From Candidatus Obscuribacterales bacterium (GTDB taxonomy: Bacteria; Cyanobacteriota; Vampirovibrionia; Obscuribacterales; Obscuribacteraceae): a stretch of 64,000 nucleotides of DNA. The first letter of the stretch is position 1. The number at the start of each line of letters is the position of its first letter. A program made the translations under genes and the position numbers. Where the stretch lies: assembly GCA_019750335.1 (NCBI GenBank), contig JAIEOQ010000005.1:434001-498000 (forward strand), written 5' to 3'. Shown one piece after another: positions 7,716 through 51,898 of this stretch. Below the pieces are notes generated by a model. That model saw only the letters and a list, made by a program, of their open reading frames with translations, did no database searches and had not been told where the DNA came from.

Positions 7716-10115
7716 ATGCCAGATCTTACAGACAAAATTTTGCCTTTGATTCCTTTGCGGGACGTAGTTGTTTTTCCGCAAATGGTGACGCCGCTTTTTG
7801 TCAGCCGTCCAAAATCAATTACGGCGATGGAGCAGGCTCTACTGCGTGACGATCGTCTTGTGGTACTTAGTGCGCAAAAAGATCCGGAATGCGAAGAGCC
7901 GGCTTTTGACGATATCTATTCAATCGGCACTGTCGCTGAAGTGATGCAGATGCTTAAGTTGCCTGACGGTACAGTAAAAGTATTGGTGGAAGGTTCTTGC
8001 CGAGTCAGCATTGATTCTTTTGATGAAGAAGCCAATCATTTTGTTGCTGCTGTTACTGAGCTTCCGGAAGTAATTCATGAAGATGAGCAGTCAAAAGCTT
8101 TAATGAGAGTTACCGGCGAAAAATTCGAGCAGTTTGTCAAATCTACTAAAAAGATCAATCCGGAAAGTTTGCTTGCTGTTTCGGGAATCGGTCAGGCCGG
8201 ACGTTTGGCTGACATCATTGCCACTTATCTCGGCTTAGAAGTATCGGAAAGACAGAAATGTTTGGAGATACTGGATAGCGCCGAACGTTTGGAATATATC
8301 GGTCAGCTTCTGTCCCGCGAGCTGGAATTGGCTTTTCTCGAGCAGCAAATTCATGATCGTGTGCGCTTTAATCTGGAAAAAACACAGCGTGAATATTATT
8401 TACGCGAAAAGATGCGCATCATTCAAGACGAGCTGAATTCGGAAGGCGAACAGGTCGGTGAAATAGCCGAGTATAAGCAAAAAATTGAGAAGTCTAAAAT
8501 AACCGGATTAGCTCTGGAACGTGCCCAGAAAGAGTTGCAACGTCTGGAAAAAATGATGCCGCAAGCGGCGGAAGCTTCGGTTATTCGTACTTATTTGGAT
8601 ACTCTTGTCTCTTTGCCCTGGGGTAAACGTTCTCGTGATGTAATCGATCTTATTCGTTCGGAAGATATTTTAGACGAAGAGCATTATGGTCTGGAGAAAG
8701 TAAAAGAGCGAATCATCGAATATCTTGCCGTGCGCAAGTTAAGTAAGCAACCGCAGAGCACCATTTTGTGTTTAGTCGGACCACCGGGGGTTGGTAAAAC
8801 AAGCCTGGTTAAATCCATTGCTCGAGCGATGAATCGTAAATTCGCGCGGATATCTTTAGGTGGAGTTAGCGACGAAGCGGAAATTCGTGGGCATAGACGG
8901 ACTTATATCGGCGCCATGCCTGGACGGATAATTCAAGCGCTGAAGCAAGCAAATACAAAAAATCCGGTTATCTTGCTTGATGAAATTGAAAAGATGACTC
9001 GAAGCTATCAAGGCGATCCGACAGCGGCCATGCTGGAAGTGCTCGATCCGGATCAAAACGATAATTTTACCGATCATTATGTTGACGCACCGTTCAGTTT
9101 AAGCGAAGTGTTCTTCGTTGCCACAGCTAACAGCTTGGACTATGTGCCCAGACCGCTTTATGACCGTTTGGAAGTAATCCATATTTCGGGCTATACCGAA
9201 GAAGAAAAAATTGCTATTGCCGAGCAACATATAATTCCGAAAACTCTGCAAAAACACGGTATCAGTGCCAGGCAACTAAAATTCGCTTCGGCTGTCATTC
9301 GTAAAGTTATTCAAGAATATACGCGCGAAGCCGGAGTGCGTAATCTTGAGCGTGCTTTAGCAGCGATTTGTCGCAAAGTGGCTACGCAAATTGTTCGTGA
9401 TCCGAAGACTGTAATCAAACTTCTACCGCAACAAGTGACTAAATATTTGGGACCACCACGGGTAATGCGTGAAAACGAAAGTCCCGGTGCTCAGGTCGGT
9501 ATTGTTACCGGTCTTGCTTGGACTGAAACCGGCGGTGAAACTCTTTCTGTAGAAGTAAACACTATGCCAGGTAAAGGAAAATTGCAGCTTACCGGACAAC
9601 TGGGCGATGTGATGAAAGAATCAGCCCAGGCTGCTTTTAGCTATATTCGCAGCCATGCGGAGCAGCTTGGTATACAGCAAAATTTTGGTGACACGGTTGA
9701 CGTTCATATTCATATACCGGAAGGAGCGACACCAAAAGACGGTCCTTCGGCCGGGGTTGCTTTGACCTTAGCGCTTTATTCCGCTCTTTCTAAGCGTCCG
9801 GTAAAACCGAGCATTGCCATGACCGGTGAAATTACTTTGCGTGGAAGAGTGTTGGCTATAGGCGGACTAAAAGAAAAAGTTTTGGCTGCGTTGCGCGCCG
9901 GAATTAAGACAGTCCTGTTCCCGCGAGCCAATGAAAAAGATCTGCAAGAGATTCCTGATTATGTCACCAGTAAAGTTAATCTGATTCCGGTTGCTCATCT
10001 GGACGAAGTATTTGCTCTGGCTTTCAAAGAAAAAAACAAGACGAGCAAGCCGGCCAAAGGACGCACGGGTGTAAGAGTCGGAGCTAAGCGCTCGGCCCTG
10101 GGGCGGATTAAATAA
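7716..10115 (+). CDS. lon: ATP-dependent protease Lon
   Basis: GPPGVGKTSLVKSIARAMNRKF Walker A; EGATPKDGPSAGVALTLAL catalytic Ser motif. Confidence 0.97.
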   Translation: MPDLTDKILPLIPLRDVVVFPQMVTPLFVSRPKSITAMEQALLRDDRLVVLSAQKDPECEEPAFDDIYSIGTVAEVMQMLKLPDGTVKVLVEGSCRVSIDSFDEEANHFVAAVTELPEVIHEDEQSKALMRVTGEKFEQFVKSTKKINPESLLAVSGIGQAGRLADIIATYLGLEVSERQKCLEILDSAERLEYIGQLLSRELELAFLEQQIHDRVRFNLEKTQREYYLREKMRIIQDELNSEGEQVGEIAEYKQKIEKSKITGLALERAQKELQRLEKMMPQAAEASVIRTYLDTLVSLPWGKRSRDVIDLIRSEDILDEEHYGLEKVKERIIEYLAVRKLSKQPQSTILCLVGPPGVGKTSLVKSIARAMNRKFARISLGGVSDEAEIRGHRRTYIGAMPGRIIQALKQANTKNPVILLDEIEKMTRSYQGDPTAAMLEVLDPDQNDNFTDHYVDAPFSLSEVFFVATANSLDYVPRPLYDRLEVIHISGYTEEEKIAIAEQHIIPKTLQKHGISARQLKFASAVIRKVIQEYTREAGVRNLERALAAICRKVATQIVRDPKTVIKLLPQQVTKYLGPPRVMRENESPGAQVGIVTGLAWTETGGETLSVEVNTMPGKGKLQLTGQLGDVMKESAQAAFSYIRSHAEQLGIQQNFGDTVDVHIHIPEGATPKDGPSAGVALTLALYSALSKRPVKPSIAMTGEITLRGRVLAIGGLKEKVLAALRAGIKTVLFPRANEKDLQEIPDYVTSKVNLIPVAHLDEVFALAFKEKNKTSKPAKGRTGVRVGAKRSALGRIK

Positions 10116-10216
10116 CCAGACCGCCGGCAATTTATCAGCCGTTTATATGGCGGTGATATTTGGTTAAAGGGTGGCATAACTGACTTAGTCACGTGTCGGT
10201 TCATGCTGAGGTATTT

Positions 10217-11623
10217 ATGGCAGGTTCAATGCCCGCAGATGAGGAAAACCTTGATTCTGCGGCAAAATTGATGCAAGAAGTACTGAAAAAAGCTTCTTCT
10301 GAATTGGAAAGAAAAGTTTCCATTCTGACCGGTAAGCTTGTTGCTTTTAATAAAGGCATGGACAGGCTTTTTCAAGATGAAGCAAAGGCGGCTTATATGC
10401 GCCTGGAAGTATGTCTGAGACAGAATTCGGATGCTTTATCTCAAGATAAAGAAGAGCTGAAAAAGTTGCTCAACCAATATCAAGAGACTGAAATAACCAA
10501 GTTGTTGCAAGCCAGCCGTCAAGGACGCCAAGAGCTTGCCGGGCAAGTCAGCCATGCCTTATCAAAGCTTGGGCAAGTTGCCGAAAGAACAAAGTCTACT
10601 TTAGAAGAGATGGTTTTAGCTCCGGAAGCGAATATTGAAAGTCGGCTCTTTCGTTTGCGTGATTCTTTGGAGCGGGCGGTTCAAGAGAGCCAGACGACTC
10701 TGTCTACAATTGAACAACGAGAAAGCGAGCGAATTAAGACTGCTGGCAACGATCTGGCTGATAAATTAGAGAACGAGCTTGGCGCTTTCAAGCATTATTT
10801 TGAAGACAATCGTCAACAGTTTGAAGCAAAAGTCAAAGAAAAATCAGATTCAACAATTTTTTCTGTGCAGGCTGAAAAAGAAAAACAAGAAACGAATCTA
10901 AAGCGCGCTTTAGATTCGTGTTTGCAGTCAATTCAAGAAAAAGAAGCAGCAGCTCGGGCAAAGATGCAATCTTTGCTGAATTCTCAAACCGAAGATGCGT
11001 CACGTTTTCTTACTGCTTTTGAAAACAAAGGTAAGTCCGATGGACAGATGGTTTTAGAAGTTTTGCAAGCTGAGCTGACCAATTTTACGGCGGCGTCGCG
11101 CAGTCAGGTGTTAACCGAATCCTGGCAATCGCAACAAAGACTCTCTTTGATTAAAGCTGAACTGGCTGTCAAATTGCGCGAATCTTACCGAGAATGCGCT
11201 GAAGGAATTGAAACGCTGTACAACAAGCTGGAAGCTGAAATTGATAAAGAATGCAAATCTGACTGGGATGAAGGATTCTCACGCAAGTTGAAGGAAGAAA
11301 GAAGCAAAGATCATTTGCAGGGACTTTTTCGGCGCAACGGGAGCAAAGTTCTGGAAAATGTTGCTGCGGCTGCGGCTCAGATTGAAGCTGATTTTCAAAG
11401 ATATGCAGAAGCTTGCGAACATAAAGTGGAAACGATTAAATCTCATGCTTGTGAATCTCTGGAGCGAGAAACAAAATTGATGAAAAAAGAGCTGGAAAGG
11501 AATGAGCTTGATTTTGAAAAGCAAGTCGTCGACCTGGAGATGCAAATTTCACGAATTGAAAAAGTAGGGTTGGATGCGGCTCATATAGTAAAAACAATCA
11601 AAAAAGCAAATCTCAAATTCTAA
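10217..11623 (+). CDS. Hypothetical long coiled-coil protein (first of three)
   Basis: ATG at 10217 with GAGG upstream; near-continuous heptad-like Glu/Lys/Leu-rich helical sequence; no recognisable enzymatic motif. Confidence 0.75.
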   Translation: MAGSMPADEENLDSAAKLMQEVLKKASSELERKVSILTGKLVAFNKGMDRLFQDEAKAAYMRLEVCLRQNSDALSQDKEELKKLLNQYQETEITKLLQASRQGRQELAGQVSHALSKLGQVAERTKSTLEEMVLAPEANIESRLFRLRDSLERAVQESQTTLSTIEQRESERIKTAGNDLADKLENELGAFKHYFEDNRQQFEAKVKEKSDSTIFSVQAEKEKQETNLKRALDSCLQSIQEKEAAARAKMQSLLNSQTEDASRFLTAFENKGKSDGQMVLEVLQAELTNFTAASRSQVLTESWQSQQRLSLIKAELAVKLRESYRECAEGIETLYNKLEAEIDKECKSDWDEGFSRKLKEERSKDHLQGLFRRNGSKVLENVAAAAAQIEADFQRYAEACEHKVETIKSHACESLERETKLMKKELERNELDFEKQVVDLEMQISRIEKVGLDAAHIVKTIKKANLKF

Positions 11624-11641
11624 ATGTATAGGAAAGTGTAA

Positions 11642-13039
11642 ATGGCTGCCCAAGGAAAAACTCTACAAACTGTCTACGATGAAAGCGTACATACGCTTGA
11701 CGTATTGGCGCAGAAACAAAAAGGGAGTATGGATAGCGTTCGCGAAGCCGCTTCCGATGCCGGAGACAGGCATGAAGAACAAGTAGCCGAGTCTTTGAAG
11801 CTAACGGCAGAAAAATTTGATCAAGACATTGTCGCTTTTGTTGACGGAGCGATACGACACATAAAACATATCATTGAGCTAGAAAAAAATGAGAATGAAA
11901 GATTGCAAGCCGGGCTGGAAGCTGAGCTTAAGCTTTTAGCTCGTTCTTTCGAGCAAGAGATAAAAGGTCTGACTGAATTCATTAGTGAAAGATTGAGCCG
12001 CAAAAATACTACGGTGATGCAGCAATCAGATATGGTAGCCGGAGGGGCTGCTGCTGCTTTGGACGATTTGACTTTCAATCAAATTAAACGCTTGAAAGCC
12101 TTGTCGCAAGAGAAAAGACATAGTTTTGCCGACCATGCTGTACCAAAAGTGGATTCGATCTGCGATATGGTTGGCAGTGTGCCGGCCGAGTCGGATGAGC
12201 GATGGTCTCGCCAAGCTGAAGCCACGGAAGCTCGCTTACAGACAGCTCAAGAGGAGCTTTGGCGATTGGGTGAAGAGAGCAAAACAAAAATCGAGTTTCA
12301 AGTTGCTGAACTTGAACAAGGTTTAGCGGAGAATATAGAACGCTTAGCTGCTGAGACTGGTTTGAAGAAGCAGCAGGCCGAAGATGAAGCTCGCGAGCAA
12401 GCTAAACGTATATTGGCGACCCTGGCAAAGCAGCAGGAAGAATTTAACGAGCGTACTTTCAATGATTTACAGAATGAATTGCGAGCGAATCAAGAAGATT
12501 TATTCGCTAAGCTAAACGAAGTTCATCGTGATACGGCTGAGCTTTCTTCGCAACTTAGAGGAAATATAACCTCTCTTTCCGCTTCTTTGCGAAAAAACGG
12601 TGAAGACAAATTTAAATCTTACATGCTTGATGTTGCTCAGAAAGTGGCGGCAGCACGTAGCCATGAACAAACTATTGATGAAGAATGGCGGCACCTGATT
12701 GCGCAACTTAAAGCTGAAATTGACACTATTGAGCTGAGCTTCGAATCGCATTTGCAAACCATTGCCCATGAGTATAGTGAAAAACTATTTGCTGCATGTG
12801 CGGAGGGAGAAGCAGCTATCGTGCGCAGTCACGATCTTTGCTCTCAAGAATATAAAGAGCTGATTGAGAATCAAAAAAGAAATATGGAAGCAAAAACCGC
12901 TTCTTTATTGGCGCGCATAAACTCTCTCACCGAGAAAGCGGTTGCCGGGATTAGATCCGCGTCTCAAGAAGAATCTTCAGGAAGGGGCAGCCGAAAAAGA
13001 TCGAAAACATCCGATTCTAACGGAGAGTCAAGTATATGA
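11642..13039 (+). CDS. Hypothetical long coiled-coil protein (second of three)
   Basis: 18-bp gap from upstream gene; E/K/A/L-rich helical protein (KQQAEDEAREQAKRILATLAKQQEEFNERTFNDLQNEL); basic tail RGSRKRSKTSD. Confidence 0.75.
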   Translation: MAAQGKTLQTVYDESVHTLDVLAQKQKGSMDSVREAASDAGDRHEEQVAESLKLTAEKFDQDIVAFVDGAIRHIKHIIELEKNENERLQAGLEAELKLLARSFEQEIKGLTEFISERLSRKNTTVMQQSDMVAGGAAAALDDLTFNQIKRLKALSQEKRHSFADHAVPKVDSICDMVGSVPAESDERWSRQAEATEARLQTAQEELWRLGEESKTKIEFQVAELEQGLAENIERLAAETGLKKQQAEDEAREQAKRILATLAKQQEEFNERTFNDLQNELRANQEDLFAKLNEVHRDTAELSSQLRGNITSLSASLRKNGEDKFKSYMLDVAQKVAAARSHEQTIDEEWRHLIAQLKAEIDTIELSFESHLQTIAHEYSEKLFAACAEGEAAIVRSHDLCSQEYKELIENQKRNMEAKTASLLARINSLTEKAVAGIRSASQEESSGRGSRKRSKTSDSNGESSI

Positions 13040-15870
13040 GTTTCTCGCTGTTTCAAGCAAAAATTCCTTATGAAGATGCGCGTCCTTATCTTCGTTATTT
13101 CACTCCCTATGACGCTCAATTTCCGGAAGCTTGGGTCAATACGGCAGTAAATAATTTAGCGGTCGGCGATCTAATCTTTGTTTTGGATCCGATTTTATCC
13201 GCTGCTTCGCAAACCCATGTTTTAGGAGTAGCTGAAACCGATAAATTTAGAGTTGGATTACTGCTCTTAGTCTTTGCCATTGAGTCCGGGGCACATCAAT
13301 GTTTGGTCGTTGGTTCCGAGGATTATGAAGCGCTAAGCGTAGAAGAACTTTTTAGTGCTCGTGCCGAAGCGGCGCAGAAAAAAGGTGCCGGATTTTATTA
13401 TTTACTCGCTCGTCCGCTGGAAAGCTTGTCTGTAGCCCAACAAGATGATCTGGCAGAAATGCAAAAATGGACAAGTAGCGGCAAGCGTAATCAGTTTCAT
13501 CGCGGTGTAGCCGAGCCGGTATTTGCTTTTCTGAGTAAGCTGGATGTGAGCATCGATGTGATTTTTGCTCAACAACCGGTTGATATCAAAAGTCTTGGCT
13601 ATTTTCTTTTTACAAAAAATCAACCGAGCGCTTCTTCTCGTATTCCTGACCTGAGTAAGAAGTTCTATCCTGTAAAAGCGGGAGAGGAAATCGGTACTGT
13701 TCCGACTAGTCCTGCTGCCGAAGCGAGAATTGAAGAGCCGGCTTTCGATGTCGATTTGCAGTCTTTGTCTCCTCCGCCCCCAGGTTGGATGCCACCGCCG
13801 CCGTCCAAGAAAAATTCGTTCTTTGAGAGCCCGATGGATGGCACTTCTGATATATCTACTCTTGGTCTGGCTAAAGAGATTGCTTCTATTGTTGACAATT
13901 TGAAAGATGCTGTTCACAGTCCGGAGCAAGAACAAAATAATTTTGATTTGAATAGTGCTTTTGGCCCGCCAATAGTTGAAGAGCCAGCTGTTGAAGAGCC
14001 TGTGGTCGAAGAGCTCCAAATGTCTTTTTTCAGCGATCCACCGCTGCCGGAAGCTGTGCCGCCAAGAGAAGAAGACATCGTACAGGCGCCGTCTCAACCT
14101 TTTCAAATATCGCCCCAGTCCTTTTTTGAAACTCAAGATCAAGGGATTTTTGCTGGAGATGATTCGCCGGAAACAATTTCGCTTTTATCCGGGCTATCAG
14201 ATGCGATCCAATCTTGGGCAAGTGATAGTGAAAGTGAGATTGAGCCAATCGTAAATAAAGCTACTGTGCCGCCGGAAGCGATGCCTGAAATAAGTATCGC
14301 CAAGAGTTATGAACCGCCGAAAGAAATTTTTGAGGAAGTACTTTTAAAACCGGATGAGAGCTTTATTGAGCCGGTTAGTATGGGATTTGAACCAGCGATA
14401 CTTCCTGCCGAAACAGCGCTAGAAACCAAAGTTGACACTTTCATAATTGAAGAAAGACCGTCTCAAACTTATGGCGACAGTGAAACTCTGATTGCCGTGG
14501 CTCGCCAAGGTTATGGTTCGGGCGTGGCGATTCTAATTGATAAACTCGAGCAACAAGCTTTGCTGGCTACGATAAAACTTGAAGAGAAGCTTACTGAGGT
14601 CGAGCTCGATCTTAAAGCGTATCTGAATACTCATTGTGACGAATTGCATGCTAAAAGTGCTGCGAGCATGCAAAATGTAGTGGCACTTAAACAAACTCTT
14701 TACAGCAGTTTGTTTGATGCGCTGGACTCTTTAAAAAGTCGTTTGGCTGAGGCGATCAAAAGTGGTGATAGCGTTGCTGCCACTTTCTTGCGTGATGCCG
14801 AGCAAGCCTTGGTGCAGCAAGCTGAGCAGTCCGAAGCGCTGATTACTAGACAAATGGATGAAATGAAGTTCGAGTTAGCCACTCATTCTTCGTCGATCCT
14901 GGATAAATTGACGGCACGACATGAGCTTGCTATGCGAGATTTGAACGATATTCTTCGTGGCGTTGAAGAACGTGCAAAAAAAATCTCCGAACATAATCTC
15001 GTACTTTTGGAAAATGACTTTAATAAGATTGTCACCAGTCTGGAAAAGCTGAAAGAAACGGGAAGCCAGAATTTAGCTGCGGCCTTCGCTCATTTTGAAG
15101 CTATGCTTTCAGCTAGTCAGGAAAAAAATCTGAACACTCTAGAGAATCTTGCTGATAGTCTGGTCGACGAATATGAGTTGAAGTCCGGGATTGGACAAAA
15201 GATTCTTTATCGAGTGGCAGCCACTTTGGAAGCTGAAACTGTAACACCGGTACTTGAGGCCGGAAAACATACTTTTGACACCGTTTCTCGCGAATTGAAA
15301 GAGAATATTGCCCGGCAAATCGTTCAAGAAAGCGATAAATTTAGGAATAGCTTGACAGGAGTCAGTACTAGCTTTCTTGATGAAATTAAGAAAGGTCTGT
15401 ACACCATCGATGAAATCAGGCTTGGCGTAACAAATATACGCGAAGACGAACTGAACAAACTGGTCGATTCGATGTGGCTTTTTATTGAAGAAAAGCGCAA
15501 TGATGTGAAAAAGCAAGCTGAGTATATTCGTAATGAAGTGGCTCAAATCGATAAAAATATTGATCAACTGAATCATACAAGTGAGACTTCATGTAGCAAA
15601 GATTTAGCCGAAATGGAGATTACTTCCTTAGGCAAGCTGCGTAGCTTGGGACTTTTAATTCAGTCTGAAACCACATCTGCAATTGAAATGCGTTTGTTGA
15701 AGATTGAGAAAGAAAAAGGGCAGGCTTTGCAAGAAGCACTCATTTCAAGCATGGAAGAGCAATCTTTTGCCGCCAAAAAATCAGCGCAAAGCGATTTGGA
15801 AAAAGTGAAAGCAGCGGTCAAAAAAGCCTTTGCTGAAATTCAGTCGGCCCAAGACGCTTGCTCCCAATAA
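13036..15870 (+). CDS. Hypothetical protein: N-terminal globular domain, Pro/Glu-rich linker, C-terminal coiled coil (third of three)
   Basis: ATGA overlap with preceding ORF; about 190-aa globular N-term, SPPPPGWMPPPPSKK and EEPAVEEPVVEE linker, then long helical region. Confidence 0.78.
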   Translation: MSFSLFQAKIPYEDARPYLRYFTPYDAQFPEAWVNTAVNNLAVGDLIFVLDPILSAASQTHVLGVAETDKFRVGLLLLVFAIESGAHQCLVVGSEDYEALSVEELFSARAEAAQKKGAGFYYLLARPLESLSVAQQDDLAEMQKWTSSGKRNQFHRGVAEPVFAFLSKLDVSIDVIFAQQPVDIKSLGYFLFTKNQPSASSRIPDLSKKFYPVKAGEEIGTVPTSPAAEARIEEPAFDVDLQSLSPPPPGWMPPPPSKKNSFFESPMDGTSDISTLGLAKEIASIVDNLKDAVHSPEQEQNNFDLNSAFGPPIVEEPAVEEPVVEELQMSFFSDPPLPEAVPPREEDIVQAPSQPFQISPQSFFETQDQGIFAGDDSPETISLLSGLSDAIQSWASDSESEIEPIVNKATVPPEAMPEISIAKSYEPPKEIFEEVLLKPDESFIEPVSMGFEPAILPAETALETKVDTFIIEERPSQTYGDSETLIAVARQGYGSGVAILIDKLEQQALLATIKLEEKLTEVELDLKAYLNTHCDELHAKSAASMQNVVALKQTLYSSLFDALDSLKSRLAEAIKSGDSVAATFLRDAEQALVQQAEQSEALITRQMDEMKFELATHSSSILDKLTARHELAMRDLNDILRGVEERAKKISEHNLVLLENDFNKIVTSLEKLKETGSQNLAAAFAHFEAMLSASQEKNLNTLENLADSLVDEYELKSGIGQKILYRVAATLEAETVTPVLEAGKHTFDTVSRELKENIARQIVQESDKFRNSLTGVSTSFLDEIKKGLYTIDEIRLGVTNIREDELNKLVDSMWLFIEEKRNDVKKQAEYIRNEVAQIDKNIDQLNHTSETSCSKDLAEMEITSLGKLRSLGLLIQSETTSAIEMRLLKIEKEKGQALQEALISSMEEQSFAAKKSAQSDLEKVKAAVKKAFAEIQSAQDACSQ

Positions 15871-20300: not shown

Positions 20301-20451
20301 AACCAGTGAAAAACGGCATTCCTCTTGGCATGCAAGGCGAGATTCATCTTTAACCTGTGCTAATACAACTATAATTACAGTTGCAGATAACAGATCAATC
20401 TTCGGTGGTATAGAGAAGATCTAGTATCTGAAAGCGAGAGGCTTCTTGACA

Positions 20452-21651
20452 ATGCGCAAGCTAATTCTATCTACTCTTCTGCTGGGCAGCTTCGTGCTTT
20501 CAAGCCCTGGCTCTTTTGCTTTGCAGGAGAATGGAGAAATTGAAGTAGATGTAAATACGGCCGATCAACATTGGCGTGATGACAATCAACCGATTCCCGG
20601 CGGCGTTACTCATGGTACTGAATCGGTCATCGTCACAGAAATTGACAAACTTCTTGGCGCTGCTCTTGACAAAGATCCGGCTACCCAAACTTATGACAAA
20701 GCGGTCACGCACTATCGTAAAAAATCGCAAAGAGCAAAGGCTGCAGCGGCCGATTCTGTGAATGCGATTGTCCCTTATACGGGATTTTCCCATTCAAGTG
20801 AAGCTGGCGACATCATTCTTGGTGAAAAGCTCAAATTGCAAAGTCGTGCTGCTGCTGAATATGCGAAGCAGAAAAATGTCGATGAAAAGCATCATAAATT
20901 GAATAATGCTGTCATGCATATTGCCACCGGGCTTGGTGGCACAGATCCAAAACAAGTGGCAGATGTCACTGCTGCTGGAATCAAACGCTTGCAAGAATTG
21001 GTTGGTGAGGTACCGGCTAACGAAATGTTTGAGACTCTTAAAAAGTGGAGTCAAGAATTTCATGTAAGTGACGCTGTGTTTGCTCAGAAAGTCTGGACGC
21101 CGGATGAGCAGGAAGAGAAATTGCAGATTGTTGTCTCTAAGGCTGTCGAGACTGACAAGGTAATTAATTCTATTGATAAACAAGTTCATAAGTACAATCA
21201 TATGAGCAAAGGTAAGCGTGTTGCCGGTAAGGTAGTTAGAAGTACTCTCGGTGCGGCTTGCTTAACGCCGACTGTGATCGGTCCAGCTGCGCAGATTGGT
21301 TTGACTGCTTTTGAACTGTGTACCGGCGGTCCGGAAGAATCTAAACTTTTGAAAGAGCTTTATTTGATGAAACGACGTGAAAGTCGCACCAAAGTATTAT
21401 CCGAGCAAGCACATTTGGCGTTGAGTAATTATCAGTTGGCTGTGTTGACTAAAAATCCGATACAGTTGGCTTTGAGTGAGTTGATGATCGCCGACTTGGC
21501 CGGCTCAGAATTGGCAGCACAAATTATCACTACGCCCGTCCTTGATAGTACAAAAAATTTCATAACACCTACTGCTGCTCTTTCAGCGATGCCCAAAGTG
21601 AATCTCCTGCCTAACGCTGAAAATAACTCAACCCGTGTTGTAAACCAATAA
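20452..21651 (+). CDS. Hypothetical exported protein
   Basis: Signal peptide MRKLILSTLLLGSFVLSSPGSFA; no recognised domain; ATG start preferred to the TTG at 20446. Confidence 0.7.
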   Translation: MRKLILSTLLLGSFVLSSPGSFALQENGEIEVDVNTADQHWRDDNQPIPGGVTHGTESVIVTEIDKLLGAALDKDPATQTYDKAVTHYRKKSQRAKAAAADSVNAIVPYTGFSHSSEAGDIILGEKLKLQSRAAAEYAKQKNVDEKHHKLNNAVMHIATGLGGTDPKQVADVTAAGIKRLQELVGEVPANEMFETLKKWSQEFHVSDAVFAQKVWTPDEQEEKLQIVVSKAVETDKVINSIDKQVHKYNHMSKGKRVAGKVVRSTLGAACLTPTVIGPAAQIGLTAFELCTGGPEESKLLKELYLMKRRESRTKVLSEQAHLALSNYQLAVLTKNPIQLALSELMIADLAGSELAAQIITTPVLDSTKNFITPTAALSAMPKVNLLPNAENNSTRVVNQ

Positions 21652-43326: not shown

Positions 43327-44502
43327 ATGAACCGCTCCATTTACCTTGATAACAGCGCTACAACACAAGTGAGGCAAGAAGTTAGGGAAGCAATGCAACC
43401 CTACCTAGATGAAAAGTGGGGAAATCCTTCCTCAGTACATTATTATGGGCGGCAAGCGCGCCAGGCTGTTGACGAAGCCAGGCAATCAATTGCGGCTTTG
43501 CTTTCTTGCGAAGAAGACGAGATTTATTTCACACCATGCGCTACCTATAGCAATAACACGGCGCTTTTGGGACGGGCGCGTTTCGTTCTGGCAAACGATC
43601 GTTCTAAAAGACTGGTGACAAGCCAAATCGAGCATCCTTCCTGTATCGGGCCGGCGCGTCATCTTGAATCGGCAGGGTGGCAGGTGGAGTATTTGTCTGT
43701 TGACCGTGAAGGTTTCTTTTGTGCTCAAGCTTTGAAAAAAGCCTTGAATAATCAAGCCGGTATGGTCTCTTTGATGTGGGCCAATAATGAGATTGGTTGT
43801 GTGCAGGATATGTCAGCTCTTGTTGAGGCGGCTAAAGAGTCAGGCGCTTTTTTTCATACTGATGCAGTACAAATTGCCGGTAAGCTACCGATAAATCTCC
43901 AAAAATTACCGGTGGACACGCTTTCGCTTTCGGGACATAAGTTTTACGGACCAAAAGGAATTGGCGTTTTGTTTGTCCGTCGGGGTTCAAATTTGATGCC
44001 GATCATGTTTGGTGGCGGTCAAGAAAAAGGATTGCTGCCTGGGACTGAATCTTTACCTAACATTGTCGGTTTAGGTGTTGCAGCTAAGCATGCTCTTGCT
44101 GACTTGGAGCTGACCAAACAAAATTTACGTCGTTTGCAAAATATATTGAAAGAAAAATTGTCGGCGATTGAAGGTTTAAGACCAACGGGACCGCAAGACG
44201 ATGAACGACGCTTACCCGGACATTTTAGTTTTATCGTTCCCGGTGTTGAGGGCGAGTCGATTGTATTGCAAGCCGACTTACGCGGTCTTTGTGTATCGAG
44301 CGCTTCGGCTTGTCATAAAGGAATTGTTCAACCGTCTCATGTCGTATCGGCTTTAGGCTTTACTGAACAAGAAGCTAAAGGTTCGGTGCGAATTTCGGCT
44401 GGTTGTTTTAATACTGAAGCCGATTGTGAAAATGCGTGCAATATTTTGAGCACGATCATTACTTCGTTAAGCAGGCAGGCGACTAATGCTTCGCTACGTT
44501 AA
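43327..44502 (+). CDS. Cysteine desulfurase (NifS/IscS type)
   Basis: IYLDNSATTQV, SLSGHKFYGPKGIGVLFVRRG PLP-Lys, SSASACHKG catalytic Cys. Confidence 0.94.
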   Translation: MNRSIYLDNSATTQVRQEVREAMQPYLDEKWGNPSSVHYYGRQARQAVDEARQSIAALLSCEEDEIYFTPCATYSNNTALLGRARFVLANDRSKRLVTSQIEHPSCIGPARHLESAGWQVEYLSVDREGFFCAQALKKALNNQAGMVSLMWANNEIGCVQDMSALVEAAKESGAFFHTDAVQIAGKLPINLQKLPVDTLSLSGHKFYGPKGIGVLFVRRGSNLMPIMFGGGQEKGLLPGTESLPNIVGLGVAAKHALADLELTKQNLRRLQNILKEKLSAIEGLRPTGPQDDERRLPGHFSFIVPGVEGESIVLQADLRGLCVSSASACHKGIVQPSHVVSALGFTEQEAKGSVRISAGCFNTEADCENACNILSTIITSLSRQATNASLR

Positions 44503-45559
44503 AATTTCTGCTCTGGTCTGGTTGGCTAGCTTGGTATTGCCAGCGGTGGCTTCTGCCGGCAATGATTTATATAAACGCGGGCTGGAATCTTATAATCAAG
44601 GCAAATATGGCGACGCGGCAAGCTATATGTCGACCATTCTTTCAAGCAGCCCGGACGATGCCCAAGCACACGCGCTTTTAGGCAAGATCTATCACAAACA
44701 AAAAAAACTCGATTTAGCTGTAGGCGAATATAGCAAATCTTTGAACGCAGATCCTAACTCAAGTGAGGTCAAATACAACTTAGGTATTGCCTATTTTGAT
44801 TTGAGCAAATACAAAGACGCGGAGAAGCTCTTGGAAGAAGCAGTTGGTGAAGAGCCGAAAAATTTCGAGTATCAATACAATCTGGCCTTAGTTCAGGAAA
44901 GATTGGAAAAAAGCGATCAAGCTCTGGAAGGTTTTACTCGAGCCGTTCAATTAAATCCGGAGAGCGCTTTGGCTCGTTATTGTTATGGACGCATTCTACA
45001 AAAGGCCGGAGCAACTGAAAAAGCAATTGAACAATACAAAAAAGCTCTGGAGATCAATCCGAAATATGTTGAAGCCTATAACAATTTAGGGGTTGCTTAT
45101 CAAAATATCGGTATGTTTCCTGAGTCGATAACGTCCTTTCAAGCAGCTTTGAAAATCAATCCGCGTAATCAAGAAGCGCAAAGAAATCTAGGTTACACCC
45201 AAGCTCATGTCAGCTTGGGCATTACCTATTTCAATCAAGGCAATTTAGGCAAAGCCTTTGAAGAGTACAAAAAGGCTCTGCAAATTGACCCGTCTTATGC
45301 CGACGCTCATTACAATTTAGCTTTGTTATATCAAAAACAAGGACAGTTGCAGCAAGCGGTCGGGCATTATCAGGCGGCAATCAAGTTTGAGCCGAGCAAT
45401 CCGAAAGCGCATAATAACTTGGGTGTAGCTTACAGCAAGCTAGGCAAGATTGATCTGGCTGAAGCTGAGTACAAGCAAGCACTTAAGCTCAAGCCTGATT
45501 ATGCCGAAGCAAGACAGAATTTGCAGTTCTTGCAAAAAGCTACTGGACGGCAAAAATAA
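44486..45559 (+). CDS. TPR-repeat exported protein
   Basis: Signal peptide, then multiple 34-aa TPRs (YVEAYNNLGVAYQNIGMFPESITSFQAALKINPRN etc.). Confidence 0.92.
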   Translation: MLRYVKISALVWLASLVLPAVASAGNDLYKRGLESYNQGKYGDAASYMSTILSSSPDDAQAHALLGKIYHKQKKLDLAVGEYSKSLNADPNSSEVKYNLGIAYFDLSKYKDAEKLLEEAVGEEPKNFEYQYNLALVQERLEKSDQALEGFTRAVQLNPESALARYCYGRILQKAGATEKAIEQYKKALEINPKYVEAYNNLGVAYQNIGMFPESITSFQAALKINPRNQEAQRNLGYTQAHVSLGITYFNQGNLGKAFEEYKKALQIDPSYADAHYNLALLYQKQGQLQQAVGHYQAAIKFEPSNPKAHNNLGVAYSKLGKIDLAEAEYKQALKLKPDYAEARQNLQFLQKATGRQK

Positions 45560-49939: not shown

Positions 49940-51898
49940 TTAGTGCAAGAGCGATTCCACATAATGAATCTGTCTTTGTAGAGCAATGAGCTCCGGGTTA
50001 TCTTTCGGAAAAAAACTTTGGCGGATTTTTTCGTCTTCGCGATAATATTTGAGCGCTTCTTTATAGTTGTGCTGTCGGACACAAAGTTCTGCGCTCATTG
50101 CTAAAGCCAAAAGAAGTGAAGTTATTTGTTTGGGATCCTTTTTTGTTTCTTCTGATATTTTTTTTGCTTCGGGTAATAGTTGATTGAGAGTGTGCCTGTC
50201 GTCAATCTGTTTTGCTAAATCAGCAATTTGGCTGAGAAAGGACATTTCTGTGAAAAAATCAGTCTGATAATCAGCAGTTTTGGCGCTTGCTAAAGCGGAC
50301 TGTAAATGACGGGCAACTTCTTTTTTGCTTTTTCCGCTATGCAACGACCATTTAGCTTTGTCGTATAGTAAGTCGGCCTTTTTCGGGTCGGCTTCTTGTT
50401 TATGTTCGTGCAGAAAAGCGTCCAAATAATCCAATTCGGATTTTGCTTTTTTTAGATCGTAAGTCAGATAAGTATTAAAAAGACCTCTGCGATTGTTGAA
50501 TACGGCATTGGGTTCTTGTTGGCTTTCGGCCTCAACAATGCCAATCTTATGCAGTAATACTCGTTCTTGGTTTAAGCCGTTAGCCGCGTATCTGGCGTCT
50601 AAAATGTGTCTGTGATTACGTCCAGGGAAACGAAAAGCAAAAGATTGAGGTTGATACATCGTTACGGCAGCATGAATGCGGGTTAAAATAGCCCGCTCTT
50701 TTGTTTGTTCAGCTTGGTTTAGTTTAGCTGCTAGATCGATTGTTCCTAAGAGCTCCAGTGTTTTGATAGTTTGTATAACAGCTCTGGTCATTTGATTTTG
50801 ATGAGCAAATTGTATTGCTTCCAGGCTTGTTTTTTCTGCGTCATTTAAAATGCGTTCAGTCGGCGTGATTGCTGTTTTTAACGAGAGAGCCGGTTTTGTT
50901 TCTTGCCACGATTTTAACCAGAAAAATAAAACCAAAAATAAACTGACTATTGCAACAGCGATAAAAGGAGTGTTGTTTTGTTTTTTGATTGGATCTGTGC
51001 TGCTGCTGCTCCAGGGAAGCAGGTTTTGGTAGTCGTTCTGATTGAGAGGCGTTCCTAGCTGTATTTTGTTTAACGCCTCGCTGAACTCATTTGCTGATTG
51101 AAAACGCAACGCCGGATCCTTTTGCAGCGCTTTTTGCAAAACAAGATTCAGGTCGTTTGATACTGGCAGTGGCTGCGGCATTTCATTTGCATGTTTATGG
51201 ATTAAACCGATTGGGTTATCGACTTCAAAAACCGGTACACCGGCAATACATTCATAGACTATGCAAGCTAAAGAATACAAATCGGATTGTTTGTCGGCAT
51301 GTTTACCCTGGCACTGTTCCGGACTTAAATATTGCGCGGTGCCGATAAGTAAGCCGGTTTGAGTAAGTTTTTGGCTGAGCTTTCCCGACTCAGGCAACAA
51401 TTTCATCAGTCCGAAATCAACGAGCTTGACGAAGTCGATCTCAGGCTCGTTCAAAAGCATGATATTCCCGGGTTTGATGTCGCGATGGATAACACCATGG
51501 GAATGGGCATATTCAAGAGCCTGACAGAGCTGAATCGCTATGTGCAAAGTACGCTCGACTGAAAGTTTGCTTTCTTCATCCATGACTTGGCGCAAAGTCT
51601 TTCCGGATAAATATTCCATTGATAAATATGGAATATGATCGTTCCAGAATCCAAGCCGATAAATGGCCATAATATGGCGATGCTGTAATGAAGATAGAAC
51701 CTTGCCTTCTCTTTCAAAACGGGCTCGGCTGTCGGCATCATTAAGATGATAGGTGTTCATCACTTTAAGGGCGACATCACGCTCCAAGCCACTTTCGCGT
51801 GCTTTGTAGACAGAGCCCATACCGCCGCGACCAATTTCGGCAAGAATAGTATATTTGCCGTCGATAATGCTGCCGATCAATGATGATTCACTGAACAT
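49940..51898 (-). CDS. Serine/threonine protein kinase with TM helix and extracytoplasmic helical region
   Basis: GRGGMGSVYKARESGLERDVALKVM, HGVIHRDIKPGNIML, DFGLMKLL; TM segment FIAVAIVSLFLVLFFWLKSW; no PASTA repeats seen. Confidence 0.95.
   Translation of the reverse strand: MFSESSLIGSIIDGKYTILAEIGRGGMGSVYKARESGLERDVALKVMNTYHLNDADSRARFEREGKVLSSLQHRHIMAIYRLGFWNDHIPYLSMEYLSGKTLRQVMDEESKLSVERTLHIAIQLCQALEYAHSHGVIHRDIKPGNIMLLNEPEIDFVKLVDFGLMKLLPESGKLSQKLTQTGLLIGTAQYLSPEQCQGKHADKQSDLYSLACIVYECIAGVPVFEVDNPIGLIHKHANEMPQPLPVSNDLNLVLQKALQKDPALRFQSANEFSEALNKIQLGTPLNQNDYQNLLPWSSSSTDPIKKQNNTPFIAVAIVSLFLVLFFWLKSWQETKPALSLKTAITPTERILNDAEKTSLEAIQFAHQNQMTRAVIQTIKTLELLGTIDLAAKLNQAEQTKERAILTRIHAAVTMYQPQSFAFRFPGRNHRHILDARYAANGLNQERVLLHKIGIVEAESQQEPNAVFNNRRGLFNTYLTYDLKKAKSELDYLDAFLHEHKQEADPKKADLLYDKAKWSLHSGKSKKEVARHLQSALASAKTADYQTDFFTEMSFLSQIADLAKQIDDRHTLNQLLPEAKKISEETKKDPKQITSLLLALAMSAELCVRQHNYKEALKYYREDEKIRQSFFPKDNPELIALQRQIHYVESLLH

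Follow-up and report, generated by a model that had tools for sequence, protein, structure and literature searches.

In a 64,000-nucleotide stretch of DNA from a Candidatus Obscuribacterales bacterium (assembly GCA_019750335.1, contig JAIEOQ010000005.1, positions 434,001 to 498,000; hereafter the window), three consecutive genes, here called P1, P2 and P3, encode large, highly helical proteins that we read as three subunits of one co-assembling cytoplasmic hendecad scaffold, with a domain of P3 displayed on a brush; the probability of this reading we put at about one half. An earlier note on this DNA, made from the letters alone, had described three consecutive open reading frames (ORFs) of about 468, 465 and 944 codons at 10217-15870, the first two separated by 18 bp and the last two overlapping in an ATGA, and this layout is confirmed, all three lying on the plus strand. 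The features concerned are the following, in window coordinates (aa, amino acids).

10217-11623, + strand: P1, ORF for a 468-aa hendecad rod protein, ATG start at 10217.
10622-10624, + strand: codon of Pro136 of P1, the residue that separates rod 1 from rod 2 and is invariant in 21 sequences (helix break in the model).
11642-13039, + strand: P2, ORF for a 465-aa hendecad rod protein, 18 bp past P1.
13036-15870, + strand: P3, ORF for a 944-aa protein with globular domain, acidic disordered linker and hendecad rod.
13036-13635, + strand: N-domain of P3, aa 1-200, a conserved alpha/beta domain (29-sequence alignment, AlphaFold).
13636-14505, + strand: linker of P3, about aa 201-490, rich in Pro and Glu and of very variable length in relatives.
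14506-15867, + strand: C-terminal hendecad rod of P3, about aa 491-944 (period 3.68; gap rate 0.96 per 1000).

P2 and P3 overlap by 4 bp. A GTG at 10193 lies in the open frame as an alternative start of P1, but the alignment with relatives begins at the ATG (10217). P1, P2 and P3 can be taken as real genes because homologous triplets are found in dozens of genomes and because the ratio of nonsynonymous to synonymous substitution rates (dN/dS) is low. Among near relatives dN/dS is 0.010-0.027 for P1, P2 and the N-domain of P3, matching the neighbouring lipoamide dehydrogenase, and purifying selection on these three is thus strong.

The Obscuribacterales are non-photosynthetic relatives of cyanobacteria. 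The sample comprised 53 genomes of this order and 385 other genomes of the phylum, and plasmids and phages were searched as well. The full-length P3 query gave no matches in the genome contigs; relatives were found when an alignment of the N-domain was used as query. Candidatus Obscuribacter phosphatis EBPR_351 is among the Obscuribacterales that carry these genes, while no relatives of the triplet were found among the 385 sampled genomes outside the order and no match to the P3 N-domain in the plasmids or phages searched. Within the order P1, P2 and P3 are an obligate unit, lost and duplicated together. The unit is present in 43 of the 53 genomes and all three genes are missing from the other 10, among them assemblies of 93-98% estimated completeness (G010, G021, G024, G035). 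Profiles count the P3 N-domain in 42 genomes, P1 in 42 and P2 in 41; the mismatch stems from contig ends (P3 at a contig start in G031, P1 and part of P2 at a contig end in G038) and from G003, in which a P2-sized ORF lies in the expected place but is too divergent for the P2 profile. The order P1-P2-P3 and the single strand are kept in all 36 triplets with listed coordinates (36/36), and 10 of these 36 share the 4-bp ATGA overlap of P2 and P3. Eight divergent extra copies (L038, L057-L061, L131, L132), found in G001, G002, G003 and G013, are each again a triplet. The earlier note had set beforehand that separation of the three genes in related genomes would speak against a common system; across these genomes they stay together.

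In each triplet protein a helical stretch of about 450 residues, almost devoid of proline, repeats at 11/3. The hydrophobicity of the three rods varies most strongly with the hendecad period, the spectral maximum lying at 3.66-3.68 residues (P2 at 3.66-3.68, the P3 rod at 3.68), and their relative power at 3.50 is 0.4-0.8 as compared to 4.6 in Pfam-confirmed signalling regions of methyl-accepting chemotaxis proteins (MCPs) of the same order, which were run through the same script as internal control. As these controls peak at 3.50, the method separates 11/3 from heptad periodicity. The designation of the proteins as coiled coils in the earlier note therefore has to be given up in its heptad sense, the dominant period being 3.66 with no excess at 3.50. 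ApoA-I and ApoA-IV, taken as a further comparison, both peak like the rods of the window. By the periodicity criterion used, 58 of 60 P1 and P2 proteins qualify; among the other ORFs of at least 250 aa in the loci a comparable peak is seen in five, apparently of one family (3.72), the other 15 flagged being members of triplets. On the hydrophobic face of the rods Leu, Ile and Val abound at the centre, where Ala, at 6-8%, is not above the rest. No transmembrane (TM) segments are seen in P1, P2 or P3.

The very high helix content claimed earlier is borne out by the AlphaFold model of P1, in which three long helices (aa 8-134, 136-348 and 356-465) span residues 8-465, and by a Pro content below 1%. 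The model, which has a mean pLDDT of 68, breaks at the invariant Pro136, where it kinks, and at a short loop; Foldseek with this model gave no matches. Moreover, spacing along the rods is strictly kept. P1 is 462-497 aa long in 30 homologues, and the distances from Ser14, itself invariant, to Pro136 (122 residues) and from Gly375 to Gly451 (76 residues) are the same in 21/21 aligned sequences, of which the other members are only 16-22% identical to P1 of the window. Pairwise gaps per 1000 residues number 0.96 in the P3 rod, the lowest value, 2.6 in P2, 4.7 in P1 and 14.7 in the globular domain of P3. A register that stays fixed at such low identity suggests that the rods pack against partners in register.

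Helices with an 11/3 period could also serve to cover a surface. In an apolipoprotein-like coat, the main rival of the scaffold reading, the rods would rest with their length against a surface of lipid or of a granule, be it the inner membrane, a lipid body or a polyphosphate granule, with putative lipid binding, and P3 would display its N-domain from there. P1 and P2 profiles indeed pick ApoA-IV and ApoA-I first among PDB sequences (3e-11, 2e-9), the rods are nearer to ApoA-I and ApoA-IV than to chemoreceptor coils in their period, hydrophobic moment, mean hydrophobicity and aromatic content, and at its centre their hydrophobic face is not Ala-rich. Furthermore, there are bacterial precedents in the Agrobacterium protein GPR with its apoA-IV-like domains (PMC8262873) and in the lipid-droplet protein MLDS (PMC5504291), and Obscuribacter has a polyphosphate metabolism (PMC4040986). 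However, the rods are long uninterrupted helices that lack the proline-punctuated 22-mer repeats of the apolipoproteins (0.2-0.4% Pro versus 3.4-3.7% in ApoA-I and ApoA-IV), the fixed register would be unexpected for lipid-facing helices, and scores against PF01442 (Apolipoprotein A1/A4/E) of 26.3 bits for P1, 19.9 for P3 and 11.5 for P2 are far below the curated cut-off of 90 bits, and half of the unrelated control genomes (7 of 14) also show weak matches to this family. Polyhydroxyalkanoate (PHA) synthase was not found in 52 of the 53 genomes of the order, that of the window (4.2 Mb, 91.9% complete) included, PhaC_N being present in a single genome and the control being positive in Caulobacter; this disfavours a role as PHA-granule phasin, albeit phasins (PF05597) too are helical granule-coat proteins and P1 matches them weakly (0.0047, below cut-off). 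WS/DGAT was found in none of the genomes, but since its positive control was silent this weighs only weakly against a coat of triacylglycerol or wax droplets. Taken as a whole, we consider the coat unlikely, although by no means far-fetched.

Large helical scaffolds with hendecad or apolipoprotein-like stretches are already known from bacteria. GPR, the growth pole ring protein of Agrobacterium, is one nearly all-alpha-helical chain of 2115 aa with apolipoprotein A-IV-like stretches and two N-terminal TM domains, found mostly in Rhizobiales (PMC8262873). The triplet resembles it in very large helical size, apolipoprotein-like stretches and a scaffold-type role; by the description of GPR it is set apart as three soluble chains that lack TM segments, possess a distinct globular domain and linker and occur in Obscuribacterales. 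Scy and FilP of Streptomyces are long hendecad rods in cytoskeletal scaffolds, with Ala-rich dimer cores and a DivIVA-like N-terminal motif (PMC9858780). The triplet shares the long hendecad rods with them, but it has no DivIVA Pfam match at E<=1, and its Leu/Ile/Val-rich face offers no Ala-rich core. A third likeness is to ZorA of the Zorya defence system, whose long helical tail is weakly matched by P1 and P2 (2e-6 and 3e-6 against the tail region of ZorA models in PADLOC; PDB 8vvn at E=0.01). In contrast to ZorA, the triplet has neither a MotA/ExbB membrane domain nor a TM segment, and its neighbours are housekeeping genes, not those of Zorya. Membership in a phage or defence system was rejected, as there was no PHROGs match and PADLOC returned essentially the ZorA tails alone. 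Both the ZorA and the apolipoprotein matches are most simply explained by shared periodicity, not descent. Each named family has defining features that the cassette lacks, and neither the libraries used nor the literature searched yielded an obligate three-gene cassette of this domain architecture.

P3 differs from its partners in its first half. Its layout, recognised earlier, of a globular domain (about aa 1-200), an acidic Pro/Glu-rich linker (about 201-490) and a helical rod (about 491-944) is upheld, as is the statement that the triplet proteins contain no recognisable catalytic motif or known family. In the 29 aligned N-domains M1, W33, G44, G149 and R151 are invariant and P161 nearly so; no Cys or His is invariant in this alignment. 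The AlphaFold model of the N-domain is fair (pLDDT 77.6, pTM 0.78), Foldseek found no match to it at E<0.001 in PDB or BFVD, and no relative was detected in Pfam, NCBIfam, PHROGs or PDB. Weak, non-significant Foldseek matches lean towards papain-like folds, and comparison with the profile of PF05708, the YiiX-like permuted papain-like peptidases, aligns about 37 columns around a GDLIF strand only (probability 21%; reversed controls 0.1%). A papain-like fold is accordingly kept here as a lead, and an active peptidase appears unlikely from the sequences. The linker consists of 13% Pro and 13% Glu and carries a net charge of -38. Whole P3 ranges from 877 to 1862 aa in complete relatives, and the linker seems to account for most of this variation; dN/dS is higher for whole P3 than for its N-domain.

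In the window the stop codon of lon lies at 10115 and P1 starts 101 bp downstream; clpP, clpX and lon (assigned by reading the sequences) precede the triplet, and a class-III aminotransferase, an aldehyde dehydrogenase and an acyl-CoA dehydrogenase follow it. Promoter-like and terminator-like sites around the triplet are not more frequent than in shuffled sequence. For the lon neighbourhood, in which the earlier note had placed the operon, comparison supports no particular meaning, as the triplet stands behind lon only in the clade of the window (the window itself, G001, G002, G013, G017 and G018). Across most of the family, and likewise in the sister family, its place is directly after the pyruvate/2-oxoacid dehydrogenase operon (E1 alpha, E1 beta, E2, E3), P1 beginning shortly past lipoamide dehydrogenase on the same strand. 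Because the sister family shares this site, the dehydrogenase-linked arrangement looks ancestral, with relocation behind lon and losses coming later. The usual site could also mean that the proteins are an accessory factor of the dehydrogenase complex, for example a scaffold clustering this very large complex. Yet in the genome of the window the dehydrogenase operon is on another contig with no triplet beside it, and the operon is kept in G010, G021, G024 and G073, which lack the triplet, so that we give this function hardly any credence.

Two further genes were noticed at the dehydrogenase operon. A conserved protein of 200-240 aa is encoded behind it (L044:5463-6140, minus strand, with homologues in L037-L051, L063-L086, L093, L095 and L096); it belongs to no Pfam family, has the motif YHGTNCYRRWEI and remains where the triplet is missing. 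This motif is reminiscent of ADP-ribosyltransferase-like folds. The gene, of about 225 aa, was rejected as a fourth subunit because it persists when the triplet is absent: G010, G024 and G073 retain both it and the dehydrogenase operon, the two being adjacent in G024 and G073. The other gene, at 1354-2967 of L089 (G000:C11) and with similar-sized ORFs in L091-L094, lies near the dehydrogenase operon and encodes a protein of 430-560 aa whose hydrophobic period is 3.72; this is the one strongly periodic family seen besides the triplet.

One of the extra copies stands in a different setting. At L131 (G002:C646, 1502-12352) a divergent triplet is preceded by a CheB-CheW-CheW-CheA(hybrid)-Hpt operon and followed by a comM-like gene, and upstream the opposite strand encodes a protoglobin-MCP. 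The rods of the triplet might accordingly organise a two-component or chemosensory array, since this copy follows the CheB-CheW-CheW-CheA-Hpt genes directly and on the same strand. It is a single case, however. Six other chemosensory loci, one of them in the genome of the window, have MCP genes but no triplet, the main copies of the triplet adjoin dehydrogenase or protease genes, and neither an MCP signalling motif nor a TM segment was found in the triplet. We regard such an accessory scaffold as very unlikely.

How could the three proteins then work together? In the scaffold proposed at the outset, the rods of P1, P2 and P3 would line up laterally, their register fixed, and so form a nearly straight bundle or filament of several strands. 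P3 would be the outward-facing subunit, its acidic disordered brush holding the N-domain of about 200 aa away from the filament, where it would be free to bind clients or a surface; candidates are the cell pole, the envelope, the nucleoid, a signalling array or an enzyme complex. Inheritance as a unit, conservation of order and strand, the fixed register, the common 11/3 period, purifying selection and the matches to ZorA tails argue for such a scaffold, from which we infer physical association, polymerisation, display on the brush and the existence of any client. Several observations weigh against it. The pTM of the P1 model is 0.20, so that the model defines no packing of the helices. The Leu/Ile/Val-rich centre of the hydrophobic face is unlike the Ala-rich hendecad dimer cores of FilP and Scy, which makes a simple dimer unlikely and means postulating a higher-order bundle. 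By measures of amphipathicity the rods resemble ApoA-I and ApoA-IV no less than they resemble any coiled coil. Finally, when profiles of P1, P2 and the P3 rod are compared with each other, they score little or not at all above reversed-sequence controls, and a shared origin of the rods is thus not supported by this comparison.

The roles proposed in the earlier note, a filament scaffold, an envelope tether or an apolipoprotein-like coat, are all still candidates: the 11/3 period strengthens the apolipoprotein idea and the fixed spacing favours a protein scaffold, while direct anchoring in the membrane finds no support, as no TM segment is seen. More broadly, and tentatively, with the odds somewhat against it, the cassette may be an undescribed three-component filament or surface coat of apolipoprotein-type hendecad rods that carries an acidic brush with an orphan domain and that was invented in the Obscuribacterales and duplicated into specialised versions, one of them on a chemosensory operon.

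Three other genes of the window were recorded in passing. At 20446-21651 (+ strand) lies an ORF of 401 aa that matches nothing in Pfam at E<=1e-5, at 44486-45559 (+ strand) a gene for a 357-aa protein that consists almost entirely of TPR repeats, and at 49940-51898 (- strand) a gene for a 652-aa Ser/Thr protein kinase, of which 42% homologues are found near the triplet in L047 and L056.

If the rods do co-assemble, a non-photosynthetic lineage of the cyanobacteria would possess a cytoskeletal or coat system of several subunits, and nature would offer in it an example of heteromeric assembly of 11/3 helices. The triplet would also bear on what apolipoprotein-like sequences in bacteria stand for, lipid binding, as proposed for GPR, or plain hendecad packing of protein against protein; the fixed register, the missing prolines and the obligate partners make this a question that can be tested on soluble proteins.

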